Source: Micromonosporaceae bacterium (GTDB taxonomy: Bacteria > Actinomycetota > Actinomycetes > Mycobacteriales > Micromonosporaceae). Taken from it: DNA of 53,832 nucleotides. The stretch lies in NCBI GenBank assembly GCA_009377645.1, contig WHTQ01000024.1:1-53832 (forward strand), read 5' to 3'. This document shows, one piece after another, positions 2,310-26,597 of the stretch (its first letter is position 1; each line of letters starts with the position of its first letter). Made by a program: the position numbers and the translations under genes. The notes beneath the pieces are model-generated. The model was not told the DNA's origin. It was given only the letters and a program-made list of their open reading frames with translations, and made no database searches.

Positions 2310-2327
2310 CGTGTGAGGATAGAGGGC

Positions 2328-4085: not shown

Positions 4086-4739
4086 TCAGCGCGGGCCGGT
4101 GCCGATCCGCAGCACCGCCTTGTCGCACCAGAACGCCTCCGCATAACGGGACCGGCACTCCATCCCGCGCAGCCGGGCGAGCCCGAGGAAGACCTCGTCG
4201 TCCCACCAGTCCCGGCCCTTCTGGGATGGGAAGTGGGTGTGCAGCAGCTCCAGCTTCCGCTGCGCGGTCGCCGGATCCATCGGCAGGTAGAGATTGCGGC
4301 GCGTCAGGTCCCCGTCCCACTTCGGGATCTCGTACTGCCAGATCACCGCGTCCCGGAACGCGGTCGGCGCCAGCTCGGCGACGGTCCGGTGGTCCTGGTG
4401 AGCGTCCTGGCGGGACGGTGCCAGGACCAGGTCGGGGCTGACCTGCCGGGCGGCCGCCTCGACCACCTCCTTGGCCTCGGCCCAGCGGGCCGGCAGCCGG
4501 CCGTCCGGGAGATCGTGGACCTGGAAGGTGATCCGGGCACCGGGCAGGAACGCCTCCGCCGCCGCGCGTGCCTCGGCCTGGCGCTCGGGAACCCCGGTGA
4601 ACAGCACGTAGTGCACCCGGAGCCCGGGGCGGGCGGCCGCCAGCGCGAGCAGCGTCCCGCCGGCCGCGATCTCCAGGTCGTCGGGGTGGGCGGCCAGCAC
4701 CACCAGCTCCCGCACCGCCGGCAGGTCGAGCGCCAGCAT
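4086..4739 (-). CDS. PIG-L family deacetylase (LmbE-like)
   Basis: A 217-residue protein of the zinc-dependent PIG-L/LmbE N-deacetylase family, which removes acetyl groups from N-acetylated sugars. The motifs AAHPDDLEIAAGG near residue 15 and DAHQDHRTVAE near residue 121 supply the metal-binding His and Asp residues. Its ATG overlaps the stop of the upstream cytidylyltransferase gene by one base (TGATG), so the two are translationally coupled. The natural reading is that it deacetylates a nucleotide-linked or glycan amino sugar in this exopolysaccharide locus. The exact substrate cannot be inferred. Confidence 0.85.
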   Translation of the reverse strand: MLALDLPAVRELVVLAAHPDDLEIAAGGTLLALAAARPGLRVHYVLFTGVPERQAEARAAAEAFLPGARITFQVHDLPDGRLPARWAEAKEVVEAAARQVSPDLVLAPSRQDAHQDHRTVAELAPTAFRDAVIWQYEIPKWDGDLTRRNLYLPMDPATAQRKLELLHTHFPSQKGRDWWDDEVFLGLARLRGMECRSRYAEAFWCDKAVLRIGTGPR

Positions 4740-5539
4740 CACCGCACCGCCGCGGCCCGCCGCTGCGGATCCCACAGCATCCACGGGCACTCCCCCCGCT
4801 GGTACATGTGCTCCAGCTCGGCCCGGTCCTTGAAGGTGTCCGCGGCGCGCCAGAACCCCTCGTACCGCTGCGCCAGCAGCCGGCCCTGCGGGACCAGCCG
4901 GGCGAGCGCCTCCGGCACCATCTCCTCGCCCTCCCGCAGCACGTCGAAGATCTCCGGGGTCATCGCGAAGTAGCCGCCGTTTTCCCACTGCATCAGCTCG
5001 CGGATGGCACGGACCGCGGTCACCTGGCCGCGGTCGTCCATCTCCACCACATGGTGGCTGGAGACCGGAGGAACGACCAGCATGCTGGCGACCGCGTTGC
5101 TGGCCCGGAACCGCTCGATCAGCTCCGGCATCGGGGCGTCGGTGAGCGTGTCCGCATAGTTGGCGAGGAACACCGGCTCGTCCTGCACGTGGGCGCGCAC
5201 CCGCAGCAGCCGCTCCCCGATCGTCGCGTGCAGCCCGGTGTCGATGAACGTTATCTTCCAGTCGGTGATGTCGGCCGAGTGCAGCCGCAGGTCCTGACCG
5301 CCCGCGGTGAGCGTGAAGTCGTTCGAGAGAGTCTCGTCGTAGCGGAGGAAGTAGTCCTTCACCGCCGCCGCGCCGTGCCCCAGACACAGGATGAACTCGG
5401 TGTGCCCGAAGTGGGCGTAGTAACGCATGACGTGCCACAGCAACGGCCGGTCGCCGATCATCGCCATCGGCTTGGGCGCGGAGCTCTCGCCCTCCCGCAT
5501 CCGCATGCCGAGACCCCCGCAGAACAGGACCACCTTCAC
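4739..5539 (-). CDS. Glucose-1-phosphate cytidylyltransferase-like nucleotidyltransferase
   Basis: A 266-residue sugar-phosphate nucleotidyltransferase. The N terminus KVVLFCGGLGMRMREG and the following PKPMAMIGDRPLLWHVM match the RfbF type that makes CDP-glucose from CTP and glucose-1-phosphate. The GTG start at 5539 is supported by AGGTGG seven bases upstream. It stands in an operon with the methyltransferase 21 bases upstream and the coupled PIG-L gene downstream. CDP-glucose normally goes to a 4,6-dehydratase (RfbG) on the way to CDP-deoxysugars such as abequose or tyvelose. No clear RfbG is in this window, so either that step is elsewhere or another SDR enzyme here takes over. Confidence 0.85.
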   Translation of the reverse strand: MKVVLFCGGLGMRMREGESSAPKPMAMIGDRPLLWHVMRYYAHFGHTEFILCLGHGAAAVKDYFLRYDETLSNDFTLTAGGQDLRLHSADITDWKITFIDTGLHATIGERLLRVRAHVQDEPVFLANYADTLTDAPMPELIERFRASNAVASMLVVPPVSSHHVVEMDDRGQVTAVRAIRELMQWENGGYFAMTPEIFDVLREGEEMVPEALARLVPQGRLLAQRYEGFWRAADTFKDRAELEHMYQRGECPWMLWDPQRRAAAVR

Positions 5540-5560: not shown

Positions 5561-6790
5561 TTAGACGACCTCCAGCTCCGGGATCGGGAACACCAGCTGA
5601 CCGCCCCAGTCCCGCACATAGGACAGCTGGGAGCTGATCTCGGTCCGCAGGTTCCAGGGCAGTACCAGCACGAAGTCCGGCCGGTCCTGGGCGATCCGGG
5701 CCGGGTCGTGGATCGGGATGTGGGTGCCTGGCAGGAACCGGCCCTGCTTGTGCGGGCTCCGGTCGACGGTCCAGGCGAGCAGGTCGGTCCGGATGCCGCA
5801 GTGGTTCAACAGCGTGTTTCCCTTACCGGGGGCGCCGTAGCCAACCACAGTAGACCCGTTCGCTCGCGCAGTAAGGAGGAACCCCACCAGGTCCCGTTTG
5901 ATCTCGTACACCGCGGCGGTGAAGCCACGGTGACCCTCTAAGGTGTGCAGCCCGGCGACCGCCTCGGCCTCCAGGACCGCCTTGACGGTCGGCAACGGCT
6001 CACCGGCAGTGGCTTCCGGTCGGGCGTGGACCCGCAACGACCCGCCATGCGTGGGCAGCTCCTCGACGTCGACCGCCGTCAGGCCGGCCGTGGCCAGCGC
6101 CCGGGTGGCGGTCAACAGCGACAGATACTGATAGTGCTCGTGGTAGATCGTGTCGTACTGCCGGCCCTCGATCAGCCGGAGCAGGTGCGGGAGCTCCAGT
6201 GTGACCAGACCGTCCGGCTTGACCAGAGCGGCCAGGCCGGCGGTGAAGCCGCGCAGGTCCGGGACGTGGGCGTAGACGTTGTTTGCGACCACCAGGTCGG
6301 CGCGGCCGTGCCGGTCGGCGAGCTCCTCCCCGACCGCCGCGTCGAGATACCGGGTCTCGGTCCGGACCCCCCCGGCGCGAGCGACCTCGGCGATGTTGGC
6401 GGCCGGCTCCACCCCCAACACCGGCACCCCGGCGGCCACGAAGTGCTGCAGCAGGTAGCCGTCGTTGCTCGCCACCTCCGTGACCAGGTTGCCGGTGCCG
6501 AGGCGCAGGCGTTCGACCATCGCCTCGGCATACCGCTTGGCGTGCGCCACCCAGGAGTCCGAGTAGGAGGAGAAGTACGCGTAGTCGGAGAAGATGTCCT
6601 CGCCCGGCACGTACCTGGGCAGCTGGACCAGCAGGCAGGCGGAGCAGACCCGCACGTGCAGCGGGTAGAACGTCTCCGGTTGGTCGAGCTGGTCGGCCCG
6701 CAGGTAGCTCTCGCACAGCGGGGACATCCCGAGGTCGACGAAGGTCTCCGTGAGCGGTTGCCCGCACAGCCGGCACGGGTTGGTGAGCAA
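5561..6790 (-). CDS. TylCIII-type sugar C-methyltransferase (three-domain SAM enzyme)
   Basis: A 409-residue protein with the three-part structure of NDP-sugar C-methyltransferases such as TylCIII and NovU. It has a zinc-binding N terminus (CRLCG at residue 6 and CSACL near residue 50), a central SAM domain (VTEVASNDGYLLQHF near residue 102) and a C-terminal domain with VVGYGAPGKGNTLLNHCG. The YHEHYQYLS signature of this family is present. The TTG start is supported by GAGGAG five bases upstream. It heads the operon with the cytidylyltransferase and PIG-L genes, so a branched-chain or methylated CDP-sugar is a plausible product. It is one of three enzymes of this build in the locus. Confidence 0.88.
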   Translation of the reverse strand: MLTNPCRLCGQPLTETFVDLGMSPLCESYLRADQLDQPETFYPLHVRVCSACLLVQLPRYVPGEDIFSDYAYFSSYSDSWVAHAKRYAEAMVERLRLGTGNLVTEVASNDGYLLQHFVAAGVPVLGVEPAANIAEVARAGGVRTETRYLDAAVGEELADRHGRADLVVANNVYAHVPDLRGFTAGLAALVKPDGLVTLELPHLLRLIEGRQYDTIYHEHYQYLSLLTATRALATAGLTAVDVEELPTHGGSLRVHARPEATAGEPLPTVKAVLEAEAVAGLHTLEGHRGFTAAVYEIKRDLVGFLLTARANGSTVVGYGAPGKGNTLLNHCGIRTDLLAWTVDRSPHKQGRFLPGTHIPIHDPARIAQDRPDFVLVLPWNLRTEISSQLSYVRDWGGQLVFPIPELEVV

Positions 6791-7085: not shown

Positions 7086-8132
7086 ATGGATTTCTGGGAC
7101 GTGGCCAAGCTGATGTGGCGACGTTGGTACGTTACCCTTCCCGCACTGCTGCTCATTCTCGCCGGCGCCGTCCTGACCGGCCTCACCGTGAACCCGGACT
7201 ACCAGGTCACCGGTCACGTCGCGCTGGTCGGGCCGGCGGTCCAGCGCACCGAAGGCGAGAACACCGTGACCCGGATCAACCCGTGGTCCGCTGAAGCGCT
7301 CGCCGACGCCGCCACGATCCGCTTACAGGGCAAGGCGCTGGCCGACCTGCTCAAGGCAGAGGGCTACACCGGTGAGTGGTCGGCGCTGGTCACCGGCCGG
7401 CTGCCAGTGATCCGGCTGGAGGTGGTCGCGGAGCGGCCCGAGCAGGCGCAGGCCACGCTGCAGCGGCTCCGAGAGGCGATCGACCTGGAGGTCCGGGACC
7501 GCCAGGCCGAGTACAACGTCGCACCCGAGGAGCAGGTGACGACTGTGGACTACGACGGCGGGGAGACCGTGGAAGCGGTCACTGGCAAGGTGAAGCGGGC
7601 GTTGATCGTGGTGGTCGGGGCCGGGCTGATTCTCACTACCGGCCTGGTGGTGGCCTACGACGCGATCGCCCGCCGGCGCCGGACGGCGGCCGAGGAGGAG
7701 GCGGGCCAGCCGGAGCCGGCCACCGGCGCCGACAGCGCCGAGCCGCCGCGCCGCCCCCGGTACCAGTACGCCACCGCCGCCGGTACGGCCGCGATCCCGG
7801 TGGCCGGCCAACCGCCGAACGGGGCGGATGCGCCGGCCCAGGTCGCCCGCACGGCCCGGCCGGTCCAGGTCCGGTACGCCGACCAGCCCTACGGTGATCA
7901 TGAGTACGCCGACCAGCCGTACGGCGAGCACGTGTACGCCGACCAGCCGTACGGTGAGCAGGCTACCGCCGAGCAGTCGACCGGCTGGCCGGTCTCGCCG
8001 GCCGCTCCGCCCGGCGAGGCGCCTGCGCGTCCGCCGGACGACTCGACGGTCGTGCTGCCGCTGTCCGGCATCATGTCGGGTCGGTCCGGGGGGGGCCGGC
8101 ACAAGCCGCCCTCCGACGTCCGGACGTCTTGA
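7086..8132 (+). CDS. Wzz-like chain-length determinant (kinase-less) with repeat-bearing tail
   Basis: A 348-residue polysaccharide co-polymerase-type protein. An N-terminal membrane segment (about 18-36) and a second one (about 171-191) flank an extracytoplasmic domain, the usual Wzz topology. After the second segment comes a long cytoplasmic tail of low complexity with three copies of YADQPYG (about residues 264-293). There is no fused tyrosine-kinase domain. ATG 7086 is chosen because the membrane segment starts right after it and AGGGGGACGGG lies just upstream. It overlaps the Wzy-like gene by four bases. Predicted role: setting glycan chain length together with the polymerase. Confidence 0.78.
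   Translation: MDFWDVAKLMWRRWYVTLPALLLILAGAVLTGLTVNPDYQVTGHVALVGPAVQRTEGENTVTRINPWSAEALADAATIRLQGKALADLLKAEGYTGEWSALVTGRLPVIRLEVVAERPEQAQATLQRLREAIDLEVRDRQAEYNVAPEEQVTTVDYDGGETVEAVTGKVKRALIVVVGAGLILTTGLVVAYDAIARRRRTAAEEEAGQPEPATGADSAEPPRRPRYQYATAAGTAAIPVAGQPPNGADAPAQVARTARPVQVRYADQPYGDHEYADQPYGEHVYADQPYGEQATAEQSTGWPVSPAAPPGEAPARPPDDSTVVLPLSGIMSGRSGGGRHKPPSDVRTS
7875..7964 (+). repeat. Three tandem 30-bp units in the Wzz-like gene
   Basis: Units at 7875-7904, 7905-7934 and 7935-7964 begin TACGCCGACCAGCC and each encodes YADQPYG plus three variable residues. The repeats lie in the predicted cytoplasmic tail. Their Tyr content suggests possible phosphorylation, as in other Wzz-type proteins, but no kinase gene is visible here. 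Confidence 0.85.
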
Positions 8133-9616
8133 CCACGACCGCCGCCCCGGTCCATCCGCTCGACCTAGACCCGTCGCTGGTCGAGCGGCAGACCTACGCG
8201 ACCCGCCGCCGGCGGCACCTGGTCGACATCACCGCACTGCTCGGGGTCACCCTGTTCCTGGCCGTGCTGATCCCGGCCGACCTGGTCGTGCCGCAGCTGA
8301 CGGTCGGGATCGGCCGCCCGGCGTCGATCCTCGGCCTGGGCCTGGCCGCCGGGTGGATGCTGGCCCGGTTCCATCCGCGGCTGACCGTCCGCGGGCCGCA
8401 GCCGCTGCGCTGGGCGGCCGCCGCCTATCTGACCGCTATCCTGCTGGCCTACGCAGCCGGCCAGCTACGCGGTCTGACCACGATCGAGGCCGGCGGCGCC
8501 GACCGGGCACTGATCTCCACAGTGGTCTTTCTCGGAGTGGCGCTGGTCTGTGCGGACGGGGTGCCCAACCGGTCCCGGCTGGACGACCTGCTCCGGCTGG
8601 TGGTGTGGCTGGGCGGGGCAATGGGCGGGATCGGGCTGATACAGTTCGCGTTCCGGTTCAACATAGTCGCCCTGATCCAGGTCCCCGGCTTGGTCAGCAG
8701 CCGGGACGAGGTGCTCGGCTTCCGCGACCGGGGCGGCACCGACCTGGTGCGGGTGGCCAGCACCGCCGCCCACTACATCGAGTTCAGCACGGTGATGGCG
8801 ATGGTGCTTCCGTTCGCCATCCACCTGGCCCGGTTCGGCCCGAGCCGGCTGTCCCGCCAGCTCGCGGGCGTCGCCGCGGTCGTGATTGCGAGCGCGATCC
8901 CGGTCACCCTGTCCCGCAGCGGCATCCTGGCGGTGTTCGCGGGGCTGCTGGTGCTGGGCTACTTCTGGACCTGGCGGATGCGGTTCAACATCGGTGTGCT
9001 GGGGCTCGGCCTGCTCTCGACGATCATGCTGGTCCGCCCGGGCCTGCTCGGGACGATCCGGTCGCTGTTCACCAATCTCGGCAACGACCCGAGCGTCGAG
9101 ACCCGCACCGACGACTATGAGACGGTCGGGGCGTACCTGGCCGAGCGACCGTGGTTCGGGCGGGGACCGGGGACCTTCATCCCCACTGTCTACCGGTTCC
9201 TGGACAACGAGTGGCTGATGCACCTGATCACCGCCGGCTACCTGGGAACTGCCGCCTTCGCCGCCTGGCACCTGACGGTGATCGCCCTGGCCGCCGCCGC
9301 GTACCGCCGCGCCACCCGGGCCGCGGACCGCCACCTGTGCGCCTGCCTGATCGCGGTCCAGGTCATGGCGATGTTGGTGGCGGGCACGTTCGACGCCATG
9401 AGCTTCACCACCCACACCACCGTGCTGGCGGTCCTGAGCGGTGTCGCCGGGGCGATGTGGCGGTTCACGCATCCGGCCCGGCAGGTGCGCAGTGCGGCGG
9501 TGCTGCCGCTGCCACGGCCGCGCTGGGTCCGCAGCTGGCTCAGCGCGCAGGTCTGGGCCCGGCTGCGCGCGTGGCGGGACCGGCAGCCGCGTACCTCGGT
9601 GGTCGAGGTCCGGTAG
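8129..9616 (+). CDS. O-antigen ligase/polymerase family membrane protein (Wzy-like)
   Basis: A 495-residue protein with about ten or more hydrophobic segments between residues 30 and 430, typical of the Wzy/WaaL superfamily. The stretch ERPWFGRGPGTFIP near residue 335 is the usual extracytoplasmic loop signature (WFGxGPGxF). The start is TTG, overlapping the stop of the Wzz-like gene (TTGA), so the two are coupled. With the flippase at 18266-19942 and the Wzz-like protein it completes a Wzx/Wzy-type export and polymerisation set. It is more likely a polymerase than a lipid-A ligase because the organism is Gram-positive by all other signs. Confidence 0.82.
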   Translation: MTTTAAPVHPLDLDPSLVERQTYATRRRRHLVDITALLGVTLFLAVLIPADLVVPQLTVGIGRPASILGLGLAAGWMLARFHPRLTVRGPQPLRWAAAAYLTAILLAYAAGQLRGLTTIEAGGADRALISTVVFLGVALVCADGVPNRSRLDDLLRLVVWLGGAMGGIGLIQFAFRFNIVALIQVPGLVSSRDEVLGFRDRGGTDLVRVASTAAHYIEFSTVMAMVLPFAIHLARFGPSRLSRQLAGVAAVVIASAIPVTLSRSGILAVFAGLLVLGYFWTWRMRFNIGVLGLGLLSTIMLVRPGLLGTIRSLFTNLGNDPSVETRTDDYETVGAYLAERPWFGRGPGTFIPTVYRFLDNEWLMHLITAGYLGTAAFAAWHLTVIALAAAAYRRATRAADRHLCACLIAVQVMAMLVAGTFDAMSFTTHTTVLAVLSGVAGAMWRFTHPARQVRSAAVLPLPRPRWVRSWLSAQVWARLRAWRDRQPRTSVVEVR

Positions 9617-9623
9617 GGACCGC

Positions 9624-12545
9624 CTACAGTGGCCGGACGGTCACGTCGCCGAACGTCCCGTCCAGCTGATGGGCTACCAGCGCGACCGAACCGGACTCCG
9701 GCCCGTCCGGCTGCTCGATCTCCAGGTCCCACAGCCCCGGCCCCGGCTCCGGCCCGTCGGCCGACCAGAGCTTGGCCTGGTACCGGGTGACGTCGCCGAC
9801 TGTCTCCACCCGCACCTTGAGCAGATAGGTGGTCCCGATCTCGAACAGTGGGGAGGTGTGGACGGTCGGCTTCCCGTCGTCGCCGGACAGCTCGAACCGG
9901 GGCCGGCCCTCGTGGAACCGGTACCAGGCGAACGCGCCGGTCGGGTAGAACCCCCACGCCGGCTGCTTGTCGTCGACCGCCGTGTGGCCGCGCCAGCGGA
10001 GCCCGACTCCGATCATCGGACCACCGGACAGGTAGCTGTACGCCGCCGGGCCGAGCTCGTGCACCGTGATCGGAACGGTGACCTCGTAGTCGGACCAGCC
10101 GAGGTCGCCCACCGCCACCACCCGGTCGTAGCCGGTGCGCCCGGTCCGCAAGCCACCGTCGAGCACCGTCCACCGTCCATCGACGACCTGCGCCTGGGTG
10201 GCCGGCGATCGGCCGCCGCTCCACGAGACCTGGTACGGAAGGTCGGTGTCCGCATCGGATCCCCGTTGCACGGTGACCGGGACGGTGGTGACCGCTCCCT
10301 GCCCGTCCGTGGCGGTGATGGTCACCTCGTTCGTTCCCGGTGCGAGATCGTCGACCGGGATGTCGGCGTTGAAGTCGCCCGGCCATTGCAGCCGCCGGGT
10401 GTCCGGCCCGAGCGTGAGTGGACGCGGTCCATTCCCGTTGACTGAGTAGCGCAGTGAGCTGACCCCGTCCGGATCGCGGACGTTGCCGAGCACATTGACC
10501 CACTGCTGGGCGGGCGCCACCGGACCGGTCACCTGCTCCCGGCCGTACCAGACGTCGATGGTGGGTCCGGTGTTGCCGGCGGCGGTGGTGAACGTCGCAT
10601 CCTCGGTCCGGACCACCTGCCCGTCCGGGTCGGTGGCCACCAGCCGGTAGTGGTAGGTCGTGTCCCGCTCCAGGTCAGCCAGTTGGACACCGTGGACGGT
10701 GCCGGCGGTCGTGGTCTGCGAGGTGTCGCCGTAGGAGTCGTCGGTGCCGAGCTCCACCTGCCCGGTGGCCTCGGTGCTGGTCAGCCACCGGACCAGCACG
10801 ATGTTGGTGGAGGTGTCGACCGAGACGTTCTGGACCTCCGGCGGCCCACCTGGTGCCCCGCCACCATCCGGGCTCCCGGTCTCGTGCACATGGTCGACCA
10901 GCGCGGTGAACGCCGGGGCCGCACCCGCCTTGTCGTAGCTGCCGGCGAACGGTCCGGCCTCGGAGATCACCATCCGCTGGCTGAACACCGCCGCGCTGGT
11001 CCAGGTCGCGCCATCCGCCGACCAGGACAGCTCCCAGTCGTCGCCGGTCCGGGCCACCCGCAGGCTCACCGCCTCCAGCGCCGGCAGCCCGACGTCGACC
11101 ACCACGGTCGGCGTACCGTCGTGCGTCACCGCGCCGAACAGCCGCAGCCCGGACCCGGCGCCGGCCCCTGCGCCGGCGCTGTGCACCCCGAACCGCAGGA
11201 ACGTGACTCGCGACTCGCCGACCGTCAGGCCCTGCATCTGGTTGCGCTGCACGGGAATCGAGCTGAACCGGGCCTCGATGCTCAGGTCCTCGTCGGCGAG
11301 CGCCTGCACCGCCCGGACCGAGTCGTTGGCCGTCCACGGGTCATGGTTGTGCCCGGCGGGCACCGACAGCAGCAGCTGTCCGGACACGTCGGCCGGTCCG
11401 GTCCGCCCCACCTCACCGACCCCGAGCGGCCGTACCGGCTCCCAGTGCGGGTCCAGGTCGGTCCCGGCGAAGTTGTCGGACACCAGCCGGCCGGCCGGGC
11501 TGTCCGCCGCGGTGGTGAAGACCGCGTCCTCGGTGGTCGTGACGTTGCCGGACAGGTCGGTGGCGACCACCCGGTAGTGGTAACTGGTGTCGGGCTCCAG
11601 ATCGGGGAGCGTGCGGGCGTGGCCGAGCCCGGCCGGCGTACGGTCGGACTGTTCTCCATAGGCATCGGTGGGGCCGTACTCCACCCGACCGGTGGTGACC
11701 TCGTCGGTGGCCCAGGTCAGCCGGGCCGACCGGGCCCGCGGGTCGGCCCCGCTCCCGGTCACCGACGGGGCTGCCGGGTCGGGACCGGCCGGCGACTCCG
11801 GCACCGCCGGGGCTGATCCAGCGGTGTCGGCCACGTAGTCCACGAGTGCGGTGAACGCCACCGCGTTGCCGGCGCGGTCGAAGCTGCCCGCGAACGGACC
11901 CACCTCGGCCACGGTCATGCGCTGGGAGAACGCCCCGCCGACCGACCACCCGGTGCCGTCCGGCGACCAGGACAGCTCCCAGTCGGAGCCCTCCCGGGTC
12001 ACCTGCAGGTGCACCTGGTCCAGCGCCGGCAGCTCGGTGTCGAACACCACGGACGGGACACCGTCCACGGTCAGGCCCGCGAACAGCCGCAGTCCGGCGC
12101 CATCGTGGTGCACCTCGTAGCGCAGGAACGTGTCCTCCGAGGCCGCCACGGTTAGCCCCTGCATCTGGTAGCGGGCGAACGGCACCGACCCGAACCCGGC
12201 CTGCACCCGCAGGTCCCGGTCCCACACCGCCTGGACCGCCCGGACCGTGTCGTTGGTGGTCCACGGATGGTGGTTCACCCCGTCCGGGACCGACAGCGCC
12301 AGCCATTGCTCTCCCCGCCCGGACTCGGCGAGCTGCACGTCCCCGACCCCGTGCGGAGTGACCGGCTGCCAGTGCGACCCGAGCACCGAGCCGCCGAACC
12401 GGTCCGTGACGAACGGACCACCGGGGCTGCCGGGCTCCGGCGCGGTCAGACCGGAGGCGAGCACGACGAGGACGGCGAGCAACGCAGCTCGTCGCCGATG
12501 CCGCGCCACCTCCCTTCGATGTGAGCGCCTTCTGCCCCGGTGCAT
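9624..12545 (-). CDS. Very large secreted modular beta-sandwich/Fn3 protein
   Basis: A predicted secreted protein of 973 residues. A basic N terminus and hydrophobic segment (about 17-36) look like a signal peptide. Modules in order: a DUF1349-like beta-sandwich (45-237), fibronectin type III (257-345), a second sandwich (352-553), a second Fn3 (565-655), a short Ig-like module starting DVWYGREQ (660-760), and a C-terminal lectin-like module (768-973) with GVGLRWRGHT and FAWYRFHEG. No catalytic motif is seen. ATG 12545 is chosen because the signal peptide follows it; ATG 12623 would add 26 acidic residues. It is last in a five-gene operon with glycan enzymes and is a longer paralogue of the gene upstream. 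Probable role: binding or organising surface glycan (inference). Confidence 0.7.
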   Translation of the reverse strand: MHRGRRRSHRREVARHRRRAALLAVLVVLASGLTAPEPGSPGGPFVTDRFGGSVLGSHWQPVTPHGVGDVQLAESGRGEQWLALSVPDGVNHHPWTTNDTVRAVQAVWDRDLRVQAGFGSVPFARYQMQGLTVAASEDTFLRYEVHHDGAGLRLFAGLTVDGVPSVVFDTELPALDQVHLQVTREGSDWELSWSPDGTGWSVGGAFSQRMTVAEVGPFAGSFDRAGNAVAFTALVDYVADTAGSAPAVPESPAGPDPAAPSVTGSGADPRARSARLTWATDEVTTGRVEYGPTDAYGEQSDRTPAGLGHARTLPDLEPDTSYHYRVVATDLSGNVTTTEDAVFTTAADSPAGRLVSDNFAGTDLDPHWEPVRPLGVGEVGRTGPADVSGQLLLSVPAGHNHDPWTANDSVRAVQALADEDLSIEARFSSIPVQRNQMQGLTVGESRVTFLRFGVHSAGAGAGAGSGLRLFGAVTHDGTPTVVVDVGLPALEAVSLRVARTGDDWELSWSADGATWTSAAVFSQRMVISEAGPFAGSYDKAGAAPAFTALVDHVHETGSPDGGGAPGGPPEVQNVSVDTSTNIVLVRWLTSTEATGQVELGTDDSYGDTSQTTTAGTVHGVQLADLERDTTYHYRLVATDPDGQVVRTEDATFTTAAGNTGPTIDVWYGREQVTGPVAPAQQWVNVLGNVRDPDGVSSLRYSVNGNGPRPLTLGPDTRRLQWPGDFNADIPVDDLAPGTNEVTITATDGQGAVTTVPVTVQRGSDADTDLPYQVSWSGGRSPATQAQVVDGRWTVLDGGLRTGRTGYDRVVAVGDLGWSDYEVTVPITVHELGPAAYSYLSGGPMIGVGLRWRGHTAVDDKQPAWGFYPTGAFAWYRFHEGRPRFELSGDDGKPTVHTSPLFEIGTTYLLKVRVETVGDVTRYQAKLWSADGPEPGPGLWDLEIEQPDGPESGSVALVAHQLDGTFGDVTVRPL

Positions 12546-12626
12546 CTGCTCCAGTTCAAGGGTTTCGACCTCGCGGGTAGCACATCCTTCTACCACGGAA
12601 CGGTCGACGACGCCAACCGGCATGGG

Positions 12627-14603
12627 TCACACCGGCTGCACAGTCACGGCCCCGAAGCTGCCGTCGAGTTGGTGGGCCACCAGTACGATCGAGCCGGACT
12701 GCGGCCCGCCGGTCACGTCGATGCTGGACAGCCAGCCGGCCGGCTCCGACCCACCCGCCGGCCACAGCTTCACCTGGTAGCGGGTGACGCCTCCGGACAG
12801 CGTCGTCGCCCGTACCGTGAGCTGGTAGGTGGTGCCGATCGCGAACGCCGGACGGGTGTACTTCGCCGGGCTGCCACCGTCGCCGCTGAGCACGAACTTC
12901 CCACCGCCCTCGTAGAAGCGGTACCAGGCGAACGCGCCGGTCGGGTACCAGCCCCAGGCCGGCTGGGCGGAGTCGACCCTGGTGTGGCCGTTCCAGCGCA
13001 TCCCGACCCCGATCAACGGCGCCCCGGACAGATGCGTGTACGCCGCCGGGCCGAGCTCGTGGACGGTGATCGGCACCGTCAGCTCGTAGTCTGACCAGCC
13101 GACGTCGCCCACCGTCACCAGCCGGTCGTATCCGGTGATGTCGGTCCGGAGCCCGCCGCCGGTAACCGACCACGCTCCGTCCACCACCTGCGCCTGCTCG
13201 GCCACGGTCGCACCGGTGTCCCAGTCGAGCTGGAACGGCAGGCCGGCACCGGCCCCAGACCGGCGCTGGACGGTCACTGTCCGCACCGTCTCCCTGCCCC
13301 CGCCGTCGACCGCGACCAGCGTGACCGCGTTGTCACCAGCCGCCAGGTCGGCGTATGGAATGTCCACGTTGAAGTCGCCCGGCCACTGCAGCCGGCGGCG
13401 GTCCGGCCCGATCGACAGGTGCCGCGGCGAGCCGCCGTTGAGGCGGTAAGTCAGCGACCCGACGCCGTCCGGGTCGCTGACGTTGCCCAGCACGTTGACC
13501 CACTCCTGGCCCCGGACCGGCGGTCCGAACGACTGGTGCGGCCCGTACCACACGTCGATGACCGGACCCTGGTTGGCCGACGCGGTGGTGAAGGTCCGGT
13601 CGCCGGTGGTGGTCACGTTCTCGGCCGGGTCGGTGGCCACCACCCGGAAGTGGTACGTGCTGCCGGGCGAGAGGCCAGCCAGGGTGACCCGGTGCCCGGT
13701 GCTCCGTGGGGTCACCGCCGACCACGACCCGTACCCGGACGTCGGGCCGTACTCCACCCGCCCGGTGGTCGGCTCGTCGGTGCCCCAGCTCACCTGTGCG
13801 GTCGTGTCCGAGGGCACCACCGTCACGTCCTGGATCTGCGGCGGTGTCGTGTCCACCGGCGGCTCCGGCGGCTCCGGCGGCTCGGTGTCCGAAGTGTCCA
13901 CCGCGTAGTCCACCAGCGCCGTGAACGCCGGCGCGGTTCCGGCGCCGCGGTAGTTGCCGACGAACGGTCCGACCCGCGTCACCGACAACGGGTGAGCGAA
14001 CGACGTGGCGACCGTCCAACTATTGCCGTCGCCGGACCAGGACAGGGTCCAGGTCCCTCCGGACCGGGCCACTCGCAGGTGGACGGTGGTCAGCGCCGGC
14101 AGGGCCGAGCTGACCCGGGTCTTCGGAGTGCCGGACCCGGTGGTGGACGCGAACAGCCGCAGCTGCGAACCGGTGTGGTGCACCTCGAACCGCAGGAAGG
14201 AGTCACTGGCCTGCTCCACCGTCAGACCCTGCATCTGGTAACCCGCCGAGGGCATCGAGTCGAACCCGGCCTGCAGGCTCAGGTCGCCGTCGGCCACCGG
14301 CTGCACCGCCCGCACCGCGTCGTTGCTGGTCCACGGGTCGTGACTGGCGCCGGCCGGAACCGACAGCGCCAGCCGCCCCCCGGACACCTCCGCCGACCCC
14401 ACGCCGAGCGGCCGCACCACCTGCCAGTGCGACCCGAGCGGCGAGACCGAGAACTCGTCCGGGACGAAGCCGACGCCGGCCTGGGCGGGGCGGGCGGTGC
14501 CGGCGACCGCGGCGAGCGCGGCCACCAGGACCAACACCAGCACCAGCCCGGACGCCAACGCGCCGGGCCGGTGCCGGGCCATGGACAGGTCAGGTGCGGA
14601 CAT
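12627..14603 (-). CDS. Secreted modular beta-sandwich/Fn3 protein, paralogue of the next gene
   Basis: A 658-residue protein with a clear signal peptide: a run of Leu/Val/Ala to TARPAQAG near residue 41. It has one DUF1349-like sandwich (44-235), a Pro-rich linker (EPPEPPEPP), one Fn3 (250-345), the Ig-like DVWYG module (350-445) and the lectin-like C-terminal module (450-658). Module for module it matches the 973-residue protein but lacks one sandwich-Fn3 pair. Strings such as WVNVLGNV, RRLQWPGDFN and WSDYE are shared almost unchanged. The ATG at 14603 overlaps the end of the glycosyltransferase gene by 14 bases; a second ATG at 14582 would avoid overlap. The module family is widespread by memory but has no assigned function. 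Confidence 0.72.
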   Translation of the reverse strand: MSAPDLSMARHRPGALASGLVLVLVLVAALAAVAGTARPAQAGVGFVPDEFSVSPLGSHWQVVRPLGVGSAEVSGGRLALSVPAGASHDPWTSNDAVRAVQPVADGDLSLQAGFDSMPSAGYQMQGLTVEQASDSFLRFEVHHTGSQLRLFASTTGSGTPKTRVSSALPALTTVHLRVARSGGTWTLSWSGDGNSWTVATSFAHPLSVTRVGPFVGNYRGAGTAPAFTALVDYAVDTSDTEPPEPPEPPVDTTPPQIQDVTVVPSDTTAQVSWGTDEPTTGRVEYGPTSGYGSWSAVTPRSTGHRVTLAGLSPGSTYHFRVVATDPAENVTTTGDRTFTTASANQGPVIDVWYGPHQSFGPPVRGQEWVNVLGNVSDPDGVGSLTYRLNGGSPRHLSIGPDRRRLQWPGDFNVDIPYADLAAGDNAVTLVAVDGGGRETVRTVTVQRRSGAGAGLPFQLDWDTGATVAEQAQVVDGAWSVTGGGLRTDITGYDRLVTVGDVGWSDYELTVPITVHELGPAAYTHLSGAPLIGVGMRWNGHTRVDSAQPAWGWYPTGAFAWYRFYEGGGKFVLSGDGGSPAKYTRPAFAIGTTYQLTVRATTLSGGVTRYQVKLWPAGGSEPAGWLSSIDVTGGPQSGSIVLVAHQLDGSFGAVTVQPV

Positions 14604-15576
14604 CCCCGGCCCCTTTCTGAGTTCCCACCAGCAGCGAAGAGCTGATCGGCCGGCCCAGTGCGGTGCGCCGGAGCCGGCCCGCGACGATCCGCGCCCGGCG
14701 CAGCCAGTACCGGGTCACGAAGCTGGCCGCGCAGGCCAGGCGCGCCCCGCGCCCGAGGTCCTCGCCGGCACCCGCACCGGCACCGGCACCGAGCAGCGCC
14801 TGGACGCTGCGCACCGTGAGCCGCAACCGGGGTGCCCGCACCGACCCCCGTCCGCGCGGGTCGAACCAGGCGGCGACCCCGGGCAACCCGCGGCGGTCCG
14901 GCCCCCGCCCCTGGCGGCTGGACCCGGGGTGGATGCGGCGGTGGAACAGCGGCTCGGGCACCTCGTGGAACCGGCCTCGGGCAGCCAGCTCGGCCAGCAG
15001 CGTGACATCCGAGGACGGGTACGGCCGGATCAGCCCGGTCCGCCGCAGCACATCGGTGCGGATCACCCCGAACACCGGGTTGCACAGGCTGAACCGGGCC
15101 ATCAGGTCACCGACCCGGCGCCAGGCTCGCCGGTCCGGCAGGTCCAGCCGGTCGGCGTACGGGCCGAGCACGGTGTCGTTCTCGTCGATCAGCACGGTCT
15201 GCGGGTAGGCCAGCACGACGCCAGGTCCGGCCCGGTCGAGCGCGGCCACGCAGCTGCTCACCAGGCTGGGCGCGCACCAGTCGTCGTACGCGGCCCACCG
15301 GAACAGCTCCCCCCGGGCCAGCGCCACCACCCGGTTGTAGTTGGCGGCCGCGCCCAGGTTGGAGTCGTTGCGGTACAACCGGATCCGCGGGTCGGCCGCG
15401 GCGAACCGCTGGCAGATCTCCCAGGTCCGGTCGGTGGAGGCGTTGTCGCAGACCACCAGCTCGAAGTCCGGGTGGTCCTGCCCCAGCAGCGACCGGAACG
15501 CCGAGTCGAGGTAGCGCTCGGCCTGGTACAGCGGCATCCCGATGGTGACCCGCGGGGGTACGGAGGACTGTCTCAT
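14590..15576 (-). CDS. GT2 family glycosyltransferase
   Basis: A 328-residue GT-A fold enzyme. The N terminus VTIGMPLYQAERYLDSAFRS and the DNASTDRTWEIC segment form the nucleotide-sugar site, and AAYDDWCAP near residue 95 supplies the metal-binding Asp pair. It probably adds one sugar of the repeat unit on the cytoplasmic side. It lies 9 bases after the methyltransferase gene and overlaps the secreted-protein gene, so synthesis and the secreted proteins are co-transcribed. The tail contains a GAGAGAG simple repeat encoded by CCGGCA units. Donor and acceptor sugars cannot be predicted. Confidence 0.88.
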   Translation of the reverse strand: MRQSSVPPRVTIGMPLYQAERYLDSAFRSLLGQDHPDFELVVCDNASTDRTWEICQRFAAADPRIRLYRNDSNLGAAANYNRVVALARGELFRWAAYDDWCAPSLVSSCVAALDRAGPGVVLAYPQTVLIDENDTVLGPYADRLDLPDRRAWRRVGDLMARFSLCNPVFGVIRTDVLRRTGLIRPYPSSDVTLLAELAARGRFHEVPEPLFHRRIHPGSSRQGRGPDRRGLPGVAAWFDPRGRGSVRAPRLRLTVRSVQALLGAGAGAGAGEDLGRGARLACAASFVTRYWLRRARIVAGRLRRTALGRPISSSLLVGTQKGAGDVRT

Positions 15577-15585
15577 CGCCGAGCC

Positions 15586-16752
15586 TCAGGCGACCAGCAG
15601 CTCGGCTTCGACCCCGGCCTCGGCCAGCGCGGCGCCGATCTCGGTGCGGTAGGCCGGGTTGGTGAGGATGACCGCGCGGGTGTCCAGTGCGGCCACGCCT
15701 TCCGGGCCGGTGACCCGGTGCCCGGTCACCGGTAGGTAGCGACCCCGCTTGTGCGGGTTGACATCCACCACCCCGGCGAGCGCCCGGTCCGGGTCGGCGG
15801 CGCTCAGGAACGCCACTCCCCGGGCGCCGGCTCCCCACAGGACCGGGTTGGCGCCGCCGGCGGCCAGCGCGCCGATCCGCATCCGCCACCGAGCCACGGT
15901 CTGCGGATGGCGTTCGCCGAAGCTGGCCACGCGCCCCCGCTGGTCGGCCGCGACCTGCAGCTCCGGCTCGGCGGTGGGGCCCGGCGATGCCCGGTTCGCC
16001 ACCACCTCCACCGAGAGGAAGATGTCCGAGAACGCCGTGTCGATGCGGAGCACCTCGAACCCGGCCCGGGACACCATCGCCCGCAGCGACTCGGCGTTGA
16101 AGTAGCACACATGCGGATAGATGCAGTCCCAGCCGCCGGTGGCGAAGTCGTAGCTGGCGTTGGGCACCTCGAAGTAGCCGTGGGTCTCCCGCTCGCCGGC
16201 CAGCGCACGCAGGCCGACCAGGAACTCGTACGGGTCGGTGAGGTGCTCCAGCACGTGCCGGGTGACCAGGAAGTCGGGGCGCAGCTCGGGCGGGTGCGAC
16301 CCGTCCAGCGGCAGGAACCCGGGTACGAAGCTCACCGCCCCGTCCGTCCCCTCCGGACCCTGGTAGCTGGCGTCGTAGCCGGTGCCGTGGCAGCCGGCCA
16401 CCTGGCACAGCTCCCGTAGGAAGTCACCCTTGCCGCAGCCGAGCTCCAGCACGGACCGCCCGGCCAGCCGGTAGTCCCCGCTGAGCCGCTTCGCCAGGTC
16501 GCTGGCGTAGGCCCGGAAGGTCGGCGAGTGGTGCAGGCTGTTGTCGTAGCTGCCGTCGTACGCGAGCAGCTCCGGCCGGAACGCGACGTTCACCACATGG
16601 GCACAAGCTGGGCAGTACTCCAGCCGGATCGGGCCGGCCGGGGAGGCGACCGCCTCGGCCCGCTCCGCCCAGGTCACCCCGCACAGGGCGGGCACGGCAC
16701 CCAGGTCGGCGCACGGCACCAGCTCGGCCTCGGCACAGGCGGGGCAGCGCAT
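15586..16752 (-). CDS. TylCIII-type three-domain SAM methyltransferase
   Basis: A 388-residue enzyme with a zinc-binding N terminus (CPAC at residue 3 and CPACAHVV near residue 47), a SAM-binding motif (VLELGCGKGDFLREL) and a C-terminal domain with LWGAGARGVAFLS and [14 protein letters not shown]. It is a close relative of the enzyme at 20929-22140 and a more distant one of that at 5561-6790. Two ATGs are possible: 16761 overlaps the FrhB stop as ATGA, but AGGAGG lies ten bases before ATG 16752, which is therefore chosen. Predicted to methylate a nucleotide sugar for the glycan. Confidence 0.86.
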   Translation of the reverse strand: MRCPACAEAELVPCADLGAVPALCGVTWAERAEAVASPAGPIRLEYCPACAHVVNVAFRPELLAYDGSYDNSLHHSPTFRAYASDLAKRLSGDYRLAGRSVLELGCGKGDFLRELCQVAGCHGTGYDASYQGPEGTDGAVSFVPGFLPLDGSHPPELRPDFLVTRHVLEHLTDPYEFLVGLRALAGERETHGYFEVPNASYDFATGGWDCIYPHVCYFNAESLRAMVSRAGFEVLRIDTAFSDIFLSVEVVANRASPGPTAEPELQVAADQRGRVASFGERHPQTVARWRMRIGALAAGGANPVLWGAGARGVAFLSAADPDRALAGVVDVNPHKRGRYLPVTGHRVTGPEGVAALDTRAVILTNPAYRTEIGAALAEAGVEAELLVA

Positions 16753-16757
16753 CGCTC

Positions 16758-18047
16758 TCATACCTCCTGTCCGGCACGGGCGGGGGGTTGGTACTCCGGC
16801 AGCGGGACCGGCCGCCACAGCCGCCGCCGGACCAGCCGCCGGAGGGTGCCGAGGGTCGAGCGCAGCTTCTCCGCCAGGGTCAGCTCGCGCCACCACGCCC
16901 CGGCCATCGGCAGGTGCCGGAACCGGGGCGCGGCCTGGCCGGTGGCGCGCAGCGTCCACACCCGACCCCAGACCGACCCGCGGGAGCGGGCGAGGTTCGG
17001 CTGGGAGGCGGTGAGGATGTCCGGTGTGGCCGGGGTGAGCATCAGCACGCCGGCCCGGATCGCCGCCTCGATCACCTGCTGGCCGCGTTCGGTGCGGGCG
17101 AGCACCAGCGACTGGCCCGGATCGTCGCCGGTCGGCCGGTACCACGGGTCGCCCACCGCCACGTCCGCCAGCTCGCCGGTGTGGTCGGCGCACAGGTGGC
17201 AGCGCCACTGCCGGTGCCGCTGCAGGATCTCCCCCCAGGACTGCTCGTAGCTCATGCTCCGGTCGGTGCCGGGCGGGTCGCCGACCCGGCTCGCCCGGGC
17301 CCGCCCCGGCCAGCCCAGCCCGCGGTAGCGCACCGCGGTCGCCTCGACCGGCGGGACTTCCAGCTGCGCCAGCATCTCCAGCGTGCCCTTTGTGGACGGG
17401 GTGCCCGCGCAGAAGAACGCGATGGTCAACCCGAGCCGCTCGGCCAGCCGGGGCCGGACCTGCGCAGCCATCCGGGTGGCGGCCACGTCGCAGGGCTTGC
17501 CGATGAACACCGCCGGCGAGTCCGCCTGCTCGATCAGGTCCAGCCGTTCGCACGGGCTGGCCGGCGCGTACCGGGAGCCGGCCGCCGCCAGCAGCTCCGC
17601 CCGGCTGCGGGAGAACCGGGCCTCGTTCAGGTACGGGACGTCGGCACGCGCCCCGATGTGAAGCGCCCCGGCCATCCCGAGCCGCTCCACGCAGAAGGCC
17701 GCCAGGGCGGTGGTGACGCCGCCGCTGGACCCGGCGAACCGGATCTCCGGGTCGGCCGCGTACCCCTCCCACAGCCGGCGGACCGGGCCCCACATCCTCC
17801 GTAGCTGCCCGATCTCGCCCGGGCCGGGTCGGCCGCTCGGGTGCGCCACGCCGACGCCCGGGCAGCACCGCACGGCCGCCGCCGCACCCTCGCCGCCGGT
17901 CGCGGTAGGCACCACCGGCAGCGGCCGGCGCCCGTGGTCCAGCACGTCAGCCATCCGGATATCGTCCGGAGCCAGGTACGCGCAGACCCCGCAGCCGGTG
18001 CACAGCTGCCGCTCGGCGACCTGGTGGACGGTGGCCATCCTCGTCAT
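16758..18047 (-). CDS. Coenzyme F420 hydrogenase/dehydrogenase beta-subunit (FrhB) family protein
   Basis: A 429-residue protein of the FrhB family. An N-terminal ferredoxin-like motif CTGCGVC (about residue 16) is followed by the FrhB N domain (FAGSSGGVTTALAAF) and the C domain with PAVFIGKPCDVAAT and FCAGTPSTKGT; a further pair, CHLC, precedes ADVAVGDPW. The family binds Fe-S and FAD and in methanogens reduces F420. In bacterial polysaccharide loci its relatives are common neighbours of pyruvyl transferases, where the role is unproven. It is first in a five-gene operon with a methyltransferase, a GT2 and the two secreted proteins. ATG 18047 is chosen because GGAG lies eight bases upstream; GTG 18056 is possible. 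Confidence 0.85.
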   Translation of the reverse strand: MTRMATVHQVAERQLCTGCGVCAYLAPDDIRMADVLDHGRRPLPVVPTATGGEGAAAAVRCCPGVGVAHPSGRPGPGEIGQLRRMWGPVRRLWEGYAADPEIRFAGSSGGVTTALAAFCVERLGMAGALHIGARADVPYLNEARFSRSRAELLAAAGSRYAPASPCERLDLIEQADSPAVFIGKPCDVAATRMAAQVRPRLAERLGLTIAFFCAGTPSTKGTLEMLAQLEVPPVEATAVRYRGLGWPGRARASRVGDPPGTDRSMSYEQSWGEILQRHRQWRCHLCADHTGELADVAVGDPWYRPTGDDPGQSLVLARTERGQQVIEAAIRAGVLMLTPATPDILTASQPNLARSRGSVWGRVWTLRATGQAAPRFRHLPMAGAWWRELTLAEKLRSTLGTLRRLVRRRLWRPVPLPEYQPPARAGQEV

Positions 18048-18182
18048 CAGGCCCACTCCGCCAGCTCGCCCCGCGCACCATTCCGCACCGTCAAAGCCGC
18101 CCCCACCGTCCCCGCCGCCCGCGTCCCGGTATCCCCGACAACCGGTTCACCGTACTGTCCACGTACCGGGCGGAGCGGGTTG

Positions 18183-18203
18183 AGTAAGAAACCCGACAGT
18201 CGG
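18183..18203 (+). promoter_or_regulatory. Candidate shared operator, copy B
   Basis: GTAAGAAACCCGACAGTCGG lies in the 218-base divergent region between the FrhB and flippase genes. The right half CCCGACAGTC is identical to copy C. A TAAACT hexamer at 18226-18231 could be the -10 element of the flippase gene, about 25 bases downstream of the site. Confidence 0.45.
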
Positions 18204-18265
18204 CGGCCTGGCCAGGCAATCGACCTAAACTCGGAACCAGTGTCCCGAACCCGGAGTGTCGACTA

Positions 18266-19942
18266 GTGCCGAGCGCGACCACCGACCTGACCGGTACGCC
18301 CGGCCCGGCTCGGGCGATCGGCCGGATGCGGGTGCGGGCGATCGGCCGGGCCACGGTTCCCCAGCCCACCTGGCCGGCGCCGGTCTCGCCGGTCCCGGTG
18401 CCACCGCCGCCCGCGCCGCCATCCGACCCGCCGCCGGGCCGGCTGCGCTCGGCGGTGTTCTGGTCCTATGCGCTGACCGCCGGCCGGGTCGGGACCACCA
18501 CGGTAGTCCTGTTCGTGCTCGCCCGGATGCTCGGGCCGGCCGCGTTCGGGGTGGTCGCGATCGGGGTGCTGGTCCTGAACCTGGCGCAGGTGCTGCTCCA
18601 GCAAGGGATGATCTCCGCGATCGTGCAGCGGGACCAGCTCACCGACGACCACCTCGACGCCGCGTTCGTGGCGATGCTGCTCGCCGGCCTGGTGGCCGGG
18701 GCGGCGATGGCCGCCTCCGGCCCGCTGTGGGCGCTGCTGGCGGGTGAGCCCCAGCTCACCACGGTGTGCCTGGCCCTGTCACCGCTGGTCCCGGTGCACG
18801 CCCTGATGGTGGTGCCGGAGGCGGTGCTGCGCCGGGCGTTGCAGTTCCGGGCGATCGCCGTGCGCACCCTGGCCGGTGCACTGGCCGGCGGAGCGGCCGG
18901 GATCGCCCTGGCGGTGGCCGGTGCGGGTCTCTGGGCGCTGGTCGCACAGCAGCTGGTGACCGGGCTCGCGAGCGTGATCGTGCTGTGGGTGGTGTGCCCG
19001 TGGCGACCGAGCCGCCGGCCCCGGATCCGGGCGATCCGGGACCTGTGGCGGTTCTCCGCCCACTCCGCCAACGCCGGGATCGCGCTGACGCTCAGCACCC
19101 GGGCCGACCAGTTCGTCACCGGGCTCCTGTTCGGACCGGTAACGATGGGAGTCTACCGGTTGGCGGTCCGGCTTCCGGAGATGCTGGTCGAGGTCACGGC
19201 CCGCTCGCTGCAGCAGGTGGCCCTGCCGGCGCTGTCCCGGTTGCAGGACGACCGGGCGGCGTTCGCCCGCCGGTTGGTCGAGCTGCAACACCTCGCCGCG
19301 GTGGCGGGCCTGCCGCTGCTCGGGGTGCTGGCCGGCACGGCCGAGCCGCTGGTGGGCCTGCTCGGCCCGGAGTGGGCCGGCACCGAGCTGCCGCTCCAAC
19401 TGCTGTGCATATTCGCCGCGGCCAACGTGTACGGCGTGCTGCTCGGACCGGCCCTGCAGGCGATCGGGCACCCGGGCCGGCTGGCGGCGCTGGCCTGGCT
19501 ACGGGGGCTGATCGGCGTCGCGATGTTCATCGCGATCGGGATCGCCATGCTCGACCAGGGCCCGGGCACCCAGGCCGCGGCGATCGCGCTGGCGGCGGTG
19601 ATCGTGCAGGTGGTGTTGAACGCGGTCGGCATCCAGCTCACCCGGTACACGGTGCGCGGGACCCGGCTGCGGCTGATCGGACCGACCATTCCGGCAGTGC
19701 TGGCCGCGATCGCCGCGGCGGCCGCCCCACTCGGCCTCGCCCGAATCGACGCGGTCCCGGCGACGCCCCTGACCGCGCTACTGGTGCAGGGAGCCGCCGG
19801 TGCCCTCGCCGGCGGGGCCGTTCTCTGGGCCGCCGACCGGCGGCTGCGCGAGCTGGTCCGGCGGCGCGGCCGCCGCCCGGCGACCGAACCACCCTCGGCC
19901 GACGGCTCACCACCACGACATCGAAGGAGCCGACCGACATGA
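18266..19942 (+). CDS. Wzx-type polysaccharide flippase (MOP superfamily)
   Basis: A 558-residue membrane protein with about 12-14 hydrophobic segments from residue 65 to 530, of the polysaccharide transport/lipopolysaccharide flippase family. The pattern FWSYALTAGRVG...VLFVLARMLGPAAFGVVAIG near the N terminus is typical. It would move lipid-linked repeat units across the membrane for the Wzy-like polymerase. A long Pro-rich N-terminal extension of about 60 residues precedes the first helix, so a later start cannot be excluded. GTG 18266 has GGAG nine bases upstream. It overlaps the following GT2 gene by four bases. Confidence 0.87.
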   Translation: MPSATTDLTGTPGPARAIGRMRVRAIGRATVPQPTWPAPVSPVPVPPPPAPPSDPPPGRLRSAVFWSYALTAGRVGTTTVVLFVLARMLGPAAFGVVAIGVLVLNLAQVLLQQGMISAIVQRDQLTDDHLDAAFVAMLLAGLVAGAAMAASGPLWALLAGEPQLTTVCLALSPLVPVHALMVVPEAVLRRALQFRAIAVRTLAGALAGGAAGIALAVAGAGLWALVAQQLVTGLASVIVLWVVCPWRPSRRPRIRAIRDLWRFSAHSANAGIALTLSTRADQFVTGLLFGPVTMGVYRLAVRLPEMLVEVTARSLQQVALPALSRLQDDRAAFARRLVELQHLAAVAGLPLLGVLAGTAEPLVGLLGPEWAGTELPLQLLCIFAAANVYGVLLGPALQAIGHPGRLAALAWLRGLIGVAMFIAIGIAMLDQGPGTQAAAIALAAVIVQVVLNAVGIQLTRYTVRGTRLRLIGPTIPAVLAAIAAAAAPLGLARIDAVPATPLTALLVQGAAGALAGGAVLWAADRRLRELVRRRGRRPATEPPSADGSPPRHRRSRPT

Positions 19943-23156: not shown

Positions 23157-23223
23157 GGCGGCTCCCGTCAGGTGGTAGGAGACAAGACTCCGAAGCATAC
23201 CGGAGGTGCTCCGGTGGCCCCGG

Positions 23224-26584: not shown

Positions 26585-26597
26585 TACACTCTGTCGG
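26585..26597 (+). promoter_or_regulatory. Putative -10 element placing a leaderless start at the GTG of the beta-helix gene
   Basis: TACACT at 26585-26590 is a good -10 hexamer, with CTGACC at 26563-26568 as a weak -35. The expected first transcribed base is 26597, the G of the GTG start, so the mRNA would be leaderless. No ribosome binding site is visible. Confidence 0.45.

Follow-up and report, generated by a model that had tools for sequence, protein, structure and literature searches.

A rare module of predicted lectin-like fold recurs with one sugar cassette in distant bacteria and probably grips the glycan made there

What do two secreted proteins built of repeated modules do at the end of a run of glycan-synthesis genes? 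The question is raised by a stretch of 53,832 bases from a Micromonosporaceae bacterium (assembly GCA_009377645.1, contig WHTQ01000024.1). This stretch, called the window here, is one entire contig (G000:C177) of a 4.97 Mb genome in 217 contigs with 72.7% G+C. Two tandem modular open reading frames (ORFs) lie on its minus strand beside glycan-synthesis genes, just where an earlier note on this DNA had placed them. That note proposed dedicated binding to the polymer of their own operon. We find that the C-terminal module common to both proteins is rare and recurs with the same cassette of sugar genes across distant groups of bacteria; it is this genomic context that is new. The module probably grips the sugar coat made by its own gene cluster.

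The minus-strand genes run in the order FrhB-domain protein, methyltransferase, GT2 glycosyltransferase (hereafter GT2a), smaller paralogue, larger paralogue. The methyltransferase ATG overlaps the FrhB stop by 4 nucleotides (nt), GT2a starts 9 nt past the methyltransferase, the smaller paralogue overlaps GT2a by 14 nt, and the larger ORF starts 3 nt past the smaller. The earlier note's co-transcribed operon is what we, too, infer from this compact same-strand spacing; a simple scan of 9400-18400 for sigma-70 promoters and terminators gave 0 sites of either kind. The larger paralogue ends the operon, the next gene being a convergent Wzy gene (8129-9616), and the pair does indeed stand last.

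Both proteins begin with a hydrophobic stretch that, by eye, resembles a signal peptide. The sizes given earlier, 973 and 658 residues, are right if the larger protein is read from the ATG at 12548 (otherwise 999 residues), although "giant" was generous. Pfam finds two sandwich stretches in the larger protein (DUF1349 37.7 bits, cut-off 32.4; GH43_C2 29.5, cut-off 22.7) and one in the smaller (GH43_C2 31.0, cut-off 22.7; DUF1349 24.9, below cut-off). It likewise finds two Fn3/PAP-N stretches in the larger (46 bits) and one in the smaller. The purple acid phosphatase N-terminal family PF16656 scores 46.0 and 31.9 bits (gathering cut-off 30), and fn3 scores 27.9 in the smaller protein (cut-off 25) and 13.8, below cut-off, in the larger. 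Because there are two of each module in one protein and one of each in the other, the larger carries one extra sandwich-Fn3 pair; a sandwich hidden Markov model (HMM) also counts two versus one, and the direct module duplication claimed earlier stands. Identity between the paralogues is 53-59% where stretches can be matched, and 65% within the C-terminal module. A sandwich model built from 12 sequences, with a predicted local distance difference test score (pLDDT) of 93.7, has a ConA-like fold whose nearest solved structures are C-terminal domains of GH43 xylosidases (Z 22.6, root-mean-square deviation (rmsd) 2.5, 187 aligned). The repeated sandwich thus belongs with DUF1349/GH43_C2 (PF07081, PF17851). 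Unlike GH43 proteins, the two paralogues have no GH43 catalytic domain in Pfam, and here the sandwiches come in arrays. Among open-licence PubMed Central (PMC) papers, we found none linking DUF1349 with exopolysaccharide, and none on such proteins as far as titles and the starts of abstracts tell. One additional sandwich-type protein, 37% identical and without the C-terminal module, is encoded elsewhere in the same genome (L006, G000:C132).

The last ~314 residues of both proteins, an Ig-like part followed by a lectin-like part, match no Pfam or NCBIfam family above cut-off. The Ig part does resemble Ig families, Big_7 most closely (3e-05 among members); the scores of the two window proteins stay under the cut-off. 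For the lectin-like part, no curated lectin or carbohydrate-binding module (CBM) family reached its threshold, the best being CBM_6 in 1/7 members (E 0.012, 16.3 bits, cut-off 28.9). A PDB sequence search with a profile of nine module sequences gave no significant match (best E 0.033), and we found no description of the module in open-licence PMC papers. A model from seven sequences (pLDDT 82.3, predicted TM-score 0.83, residues 199-208 below a pLDDT of 50) consists of an Ig-like part and a ConA-like sandwich. Its top VIA match is galactocerebrosidase (Z 17.9, rmsd 2.8, 179 aligned), over what is presumably that enzyme's lectin domain. CBM66 has the predicted fold in common (Z 17.5, rmsd 2.4, 154 aligned, 16% identity), and the same list holds many legume lectins and ERGIC-53 at about Z 16, together with one GH16 glucanase. 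By Foldseek, CBM66 has a TM-score by target of 0.68-0.70, and the first match is the PL36 alginate lyase Aly36B (E 8.8e-6), with further lyases next. "Lectin-like", the earlier note's term, is therefore correct as a label for the modelled fold. Eight polar residues of the lectin part (R142, D149, R150, D156, H196, E276, H300 and D303) are invariant in 9/9 module sequences.

The module was found in 1/200 genomes of the family, 1/397 of the order and 1/3 of the genus, each time in the window's own genome. In a phylum sample it occurs in 5/396 genomes: its own, G491, G449, G365 and G321. The raw tally was 7/396, from which we dropped G317 (5.1e-7) and G295 (6.9e-6) as partial matches covering 47 to 86 of 311 model positions. 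The four other genomes all belong to one other class of the phylum (4/66 genomes there); in the scans of 396 and 397 genomes no more than five candidates were scored per genome, and a fuller scan of the 66 returned the same four. Beyond the phylum, a pattern scan of genome contigs gave one locus (44% identity), in Bacterium UASB270, which we take to be Vecturithrix and which is the only carrier among four genomes of its phylum. Eight of the 72,556 plasmid records in PLSDB carry the module, all from Leisingera (38.8-40.1% identity); the sandwich subtype is found in the same eight records and one weak Nonomuraea record. Two scans of viral contigs gave no relative. Overall, the relatives outside the order (four other-class genomes, Vecturithrix and eight Leisingera plasmids) are 39-50% identical. 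Within the genus, the congener G023 has matches to the genes on the ATP-synthase side of the window. For 29/37 window ORFs (some of the 37 may not be genes), including all polysaccharide genes tested, there is no match in 60 kb of G023 and 14.5 kb of G054, an absence at that place only. That the 60 kb of G023 contain ATP-synthase genes with no polysaccharide locus next to them fits acquisition or loss of the locus as an island.

Relatives of the window's sugar genes were located by tblastn with the window genes (so were those on two Leisingera plasmids; a third plasmid was read by annotation up to the record end). Six distinct intact loci could be compared: the window, G491, G449 and G321 (these three of one class), Vecturithrix (G200, L009) and Leisingera. 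In 6/6 of them, across three phyla (two of these named by inference), the module gene is part of the same cassette or adjoins it. Homologues lying mostly away from polysaccharide loci would have told against the earlier note; in this sample a glycan cassette accompanies the module at every distinct intact locus. The cassette comprises an RfbF-like cytidylyltransferase, an NAD epimerase, a C-methyltransferase (Methyltransf_13/14), two or more related methyltransferases and GT2a, which makes at least three methyltransferases per intact locus. GT2a lies at most 125 nt from the module gene in five of the six loci (on the opposite strand in G449) and 6.2 kb off in G200. In a seventh genome, G365, the module protein is cut short by the end of its contig, and a different contig carries most of the cassette together with Wzx and Wzy. 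Relatives of both the window Wzx and the window Wzy occur in the G491, G449 and G365 loci. The RfbF proteins of G491, G449, G200 and Leisingera are 63-69% mutually identical, across phyla; the window and G321 have a second RfbF type, with a PIG-L gene. The window's RfbF and PIG-L genes (4086-5539, minus strand) also match a module-free cassette type in G226, G396 and G415 (RfbF 51-55%).

All five module genomes are among the 19/396 with GT2a at 1e-40, a biased figure, as four of the five were in the query alignment and G365 alone is independent. We read the GT2a surroundings in 12 of the 19 (window, G491, G449, G321, G365, G314 at two places, G496, G226, G264, G246, G396 and G415). GT2a stands without other cassette genes in G264 and at one G314 place, and with one methyltransferase only beside it in G496.

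The rest of the protein changes from locus to locus. The module is the C-terminal end of the protein in the window pair, G491, G449, G321, G365 and Vecturithrix, and in Leisingera it is followed by 128 residues that resemble, by eye, a type I secretion tail. The N-terminal parts are sandwich arrays, 2,600-residue giants or a Poly_export (Wza-like) domain. Sandwich copies number one and two in the window's smaller and larger proteins, two in G491, three in G449 and in G321, at least one in the cut G365 protein, and five or four in two Leisingera proteins. The two G491 sandwiches are identical at 605/609 bases (L024 196-804 and 1345-1953), which marks a recent duplication within the gene. The Vecturithrix protein has no sandwich; ahead of its module stands a Poly_export domain (PF02563, E 5.4e-18), which is that of Wza-type exporters. 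This fusion sits in an operon-like run with the same cassette, a separate FG-GAP protein and a PMT_2 (protein-mannosyltransferase-like) gene. FG-GAP repeats, which often form beta-propellers, are also found inside the Leisingera giant, and their similarity to the Vecturithrix protein is weak (22% over 296 columns). Since the sandwiches are ConA-like and present in one to five copies everywhere but in Vecturithrix, most chains could carry several sugar sites.

For a module that stays with the cassette while the rest of the protein changes, has a lectin fold and is in one case fused to a glycan exporter, the simplest role is to recognise the glycan of that cassette. We therefore favour, at a little better than even odds (roughly 55%), the reading that the paralogues are secreted and act as multivalent matrix or anchor proteins of lectin type, dedicated to the glycan of their own locus. 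The Ig-like stem and ConA-like lectin domain would recognise a feature added by the cassette, probably the C-methylated sugar that the neighbouring GT2 attaches. Reach, additional sugar contacts or attachment would come from the changing N-terminal regions, be they sandwich arrays, repeats of FG-GAP and cadherin-like type or the export-protein domain; the sandwich arrays would add both length and further contacts.

Several observations weigh against this reading. The modelled fold is shared with enzymes and by itself fits binding and catalysis alike, and the set of invariant polar residues could, judged from the alignment, be an active site. As two RfbF types accompany the module, the sugar may differ between loci. 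The Vecturithrix locus has no match to the window Wzx or Wzy in 60 kb and does have a PMT_2 transferase, so the glycan there may be no polymer. One full cassette (G246) has no module in the stretch read, nor do four shorter ones: G314b, with one methyltransferase fewer, and G226, G396 and G415, with the first methyltransferase only. The genomes concerned (G246, G314, G226, G396 and G415) gave no module match in the scan of 396. Finally, module and cassette gene-tree distances are not significantly correlated (mirror-tree, Mantel, six loci; the observed value is reached in 58/720 to 461/720 permutations). The dedicated binding proposed by the earlier note is partly supported and gains strength from the cassette context; the module-free cassettes and the lyases and GH16 glucanase housed by the same fold keep that binding conditional.

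The same fold matches invite a different idea: with a lyase- or GH16-like version of the ConA fold, the C-terminal module could act as an enzyme on the glycan of its locus, trimming, cleaving or re-linking it. Aly36B and the other lyases that head the Foldseek list and the GH16 glucanase in the VIA list would suit it, as would eight invariant polar residues, perhaps more than a plain binding face needs. Identity to the listed lyases is 8-13%, however, and neither Pfam nor NCBIfam places the module in an enzyme family; a known hydrolase was the outcome that the earlier note had named as telling against it, and no such family matches the module by sequence. The GH16 catalytic motif, E-x-D-x(1,2)-E, is missing in 8/9 module sequences, and its one match, in L018, is not shared by the others. 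We consider catalysis unlikely.

The close GT2a linkage would also be expected if the modular protein were itself a glycan acceptor, decorated by the cassette product, with the module recognised by the GT2 or another transferase; the PMT_2 gene of the Vecturithrix operon and the FG-GAP protein there, which shows weak similarity to the FG-GAP region of the Leisingera giant, point the same way. Such a role is improbable in view of the Wzx and Wzy relatives in G491, G449 and G365, which speak for a polymer, of a module conserved like a folded domain with a site, and of cassettes that do without it. An adhesin for foreign glycans or surfaces, merely travelling with a biofilm locus, would account for the modular Ig/Fn3/lectin build and the biofilm setting. 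It would leave unexplained why, across very distant taxa, the conserved part keeps to a single type of sugar cassette and why one of these taxa has it fused to an export protein, and we rate it the least probable of these three alternatives.

If the paralogues are dedicated glycan-binding proteins, they would, by analogy, work most like RbmC/Bap1 and RbmA, or like SLH proteins with CsaB, as members of none of these groups. In the rbm cluster of Vibrio cholerae, matrix proteins are encoded near polysaccharide genes, much as at the window locus. There, too, one conserved part of a secreted modular protein is assigned to the polymer, here conditionally, and other parts vary. In the parts of the reports used here, the beta-propeller of RbmC/Bap1 binds the exopolysaccharide VPS (Vibrio polysaccharide) and the proteins are likened to double-sided tape (PMC10102183), and RbmA binds VPS via its FnIII-2 domain (PMC5605196). 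The FG-GAP repeats in the Leisingera relative and beside the Vecturithrix one add to the likeness with RbmC/Bap1. Unlike either the propeller or FnIII-2, the conserved part here is a ConA-like lectin module with an Ig stem; for the window proteins Pfam gives neither a propeller nor an FG-GAP family up to E 1, and both modelled parts are beta-sandwich folds. SLH-domain proteins and the CsaB-pyruvylated cell-wall polymer likewise link a protein module to the enzymes that make its polymer ligand, and a pyruvyl transferase is present in the window and G491 loci. However, the fold is another, neither window protein matches SLH repeats in Pfam up to E 1, and the window pyruvyl transferase has no relative in the remaining loci compared. 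CBM66, the levan-binding module of Bacillus subtilis, and the galactocerebrosidase lectin domain share the predicted ConA-like fold (Z 17-18 over 153-179 residues). They differ in that the module is 16-17% identical to them, matches no sequence family and is partnered with a glycan synthesis locus rather than a hydrolase.

A broader proposal, which we put forward as tentative, is that the module represents a so far undescribed family of domains, each binding its cognate glycan, and that this family moves from phylum to phylum with the C-methyl-sugar cassette as a transferable key-and-lock unit. The module would sit on an export protein in some lineages, catching the leaving glycan, and on matrix cross-linkers in others. 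In keeping with the matrix or anchor role, the Leisingera copies lie on plasmids, one carrier of which is named M602. The strain set of PMC10090131 seems to be the source of these plasmids, and by its name the M602 record is presumably the M602 strain which that report, in the part drawn on, counts among the most biofilm-enriched; plasmids with polysaccharide genes are called biofilm plasmids there. The module protein was not met in it ("cadherin" has 0 occurrences in its main text). In the portion used of a study of granule extracellular polymeric substance proteomics, Vecturithrix appears for solute-binding proteins, not for the module protein (PMC6367495). Few polysaccharide-binding matrix proteins have been linked to the genes behind their ligand. 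At these loci the pairing is genome-encoded and repeated in unrelated bacteria, which makes ligand specificity testable through single cassette genes. The module could serve as a probe for one class of glycans with methylated sugars, and it opens a way to study how bacteria that lack an outer membrane keep hold of their polymer.

Table 1. Positions of the two paralogues, their modules and the accompanying glycan genes (window coordinates unless another locus is named).
Feature	Coordinates	Strand	Remarks
Larger secreted modular paralogue	9624..12623	-	999 aa from first ATG (12623); 973 aa from later ATG 12548
Sandwich 1 (DUF1349/GH43_C2-like)	11820..12419	-	larger protein residues 69-268; Pfam, sandwich HMM
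Fn3/PAP-N-like module 1	11508..11756	-	larger protein ~residues 290-372; Pfam
Sandwich 2	10875..11492	-	larger protein residues 378-583; Pfam, sandwich HMM
Fn3/PAP-N-like module 2	10584..10826	-	larger protein residues 600-680; Pfam
C-terminal module (Ig-like DVWYG/WVNVLGNV and lectin-like parts)	9627..10568	-	larger protein residues 686-999
Smaller secreted modular paralogue	12627..14603	-	658 aa
Sandwich (DUF1349/GH43_C2-like)	13890..14474	-	smaller protein residues 44-238; Pfam, sandwich HMM; model pLDDT 93.7
Fn3/PAP-N-like module	13584..13826	-	smaller protein residues 260-340; Pfam
Ig-like part of C-terminal module	13251..13571	-	smaller protein ~residues 345-451
Lectin-like (ConA-like) part of C-terminal module	12630..13250	-	smaller protein ~residues 452-658
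GT2 (GT2a)	14590..15576	-	relatives <=125 nt from module gene in 5/6 distinct intact loci
Methyltransferase (Methyltransf_23/14), cassette gene	15586..16761	-	
FrhB-domain protein	16758..18056	-	present too in G491 and G449 loci
Second methyltransferase, cassette gene	20929..22260	-	same type as 15586..16761; start codon not settled
NAD-dependent epimerase, cassette gene	22119..23171	-	50-58% identity to five other loci; start codon not settled
C-methyltransferase (Methyltransf_13/14), cassette gene	5561..6790	-	
RfbF-like sugar-phosphate cytidylyltransferase, cassette gene	4739..5539	-	named after relatives annotated rfbF; Pfam NTP_transf_3 below cut-off
PIG-L deacetylase adjoining RfbF	4086..4772	-	common to G321, G226, G396 and G415 cassettes
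Wzy_C (O-antigen ligase/polymerase-like)	8129..9616	+	convergent with paralogues
Wzx-like flippase (Polysacc_synt_3)	18266..19942	+	
Polysaccharide pyruvyl transferase (WcaK-like)	25141..26442	-	present too in G491 locus
FG-GAP repeat protein within Vecturithrix cassette run	L009 12269-14572		

The window's cassette genes are scattered over 4.7-23.2 kb, with Wzy, Wzx and FrhB interspersed (Table 1). The FrhB-domain protein (16758-18056) and the polysaccharide pyruvyl transferase (25141-26442) are paired again in G491. Two coiled-coil proteins that look DivIVA-like by eye (932-2176 and 2313-4031, plus strand) mark the locus edge. A Beta-helix-like protein (26597-27607, plus strand; Beta_helix below cut-off) has relatives of 27-33% identity in the polysaccharide loci of G491, G449 and G365, and is possibly a second conserved secreted partner. 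Right-handed beta-helix proteins are carried by the Leisingera loci as well.

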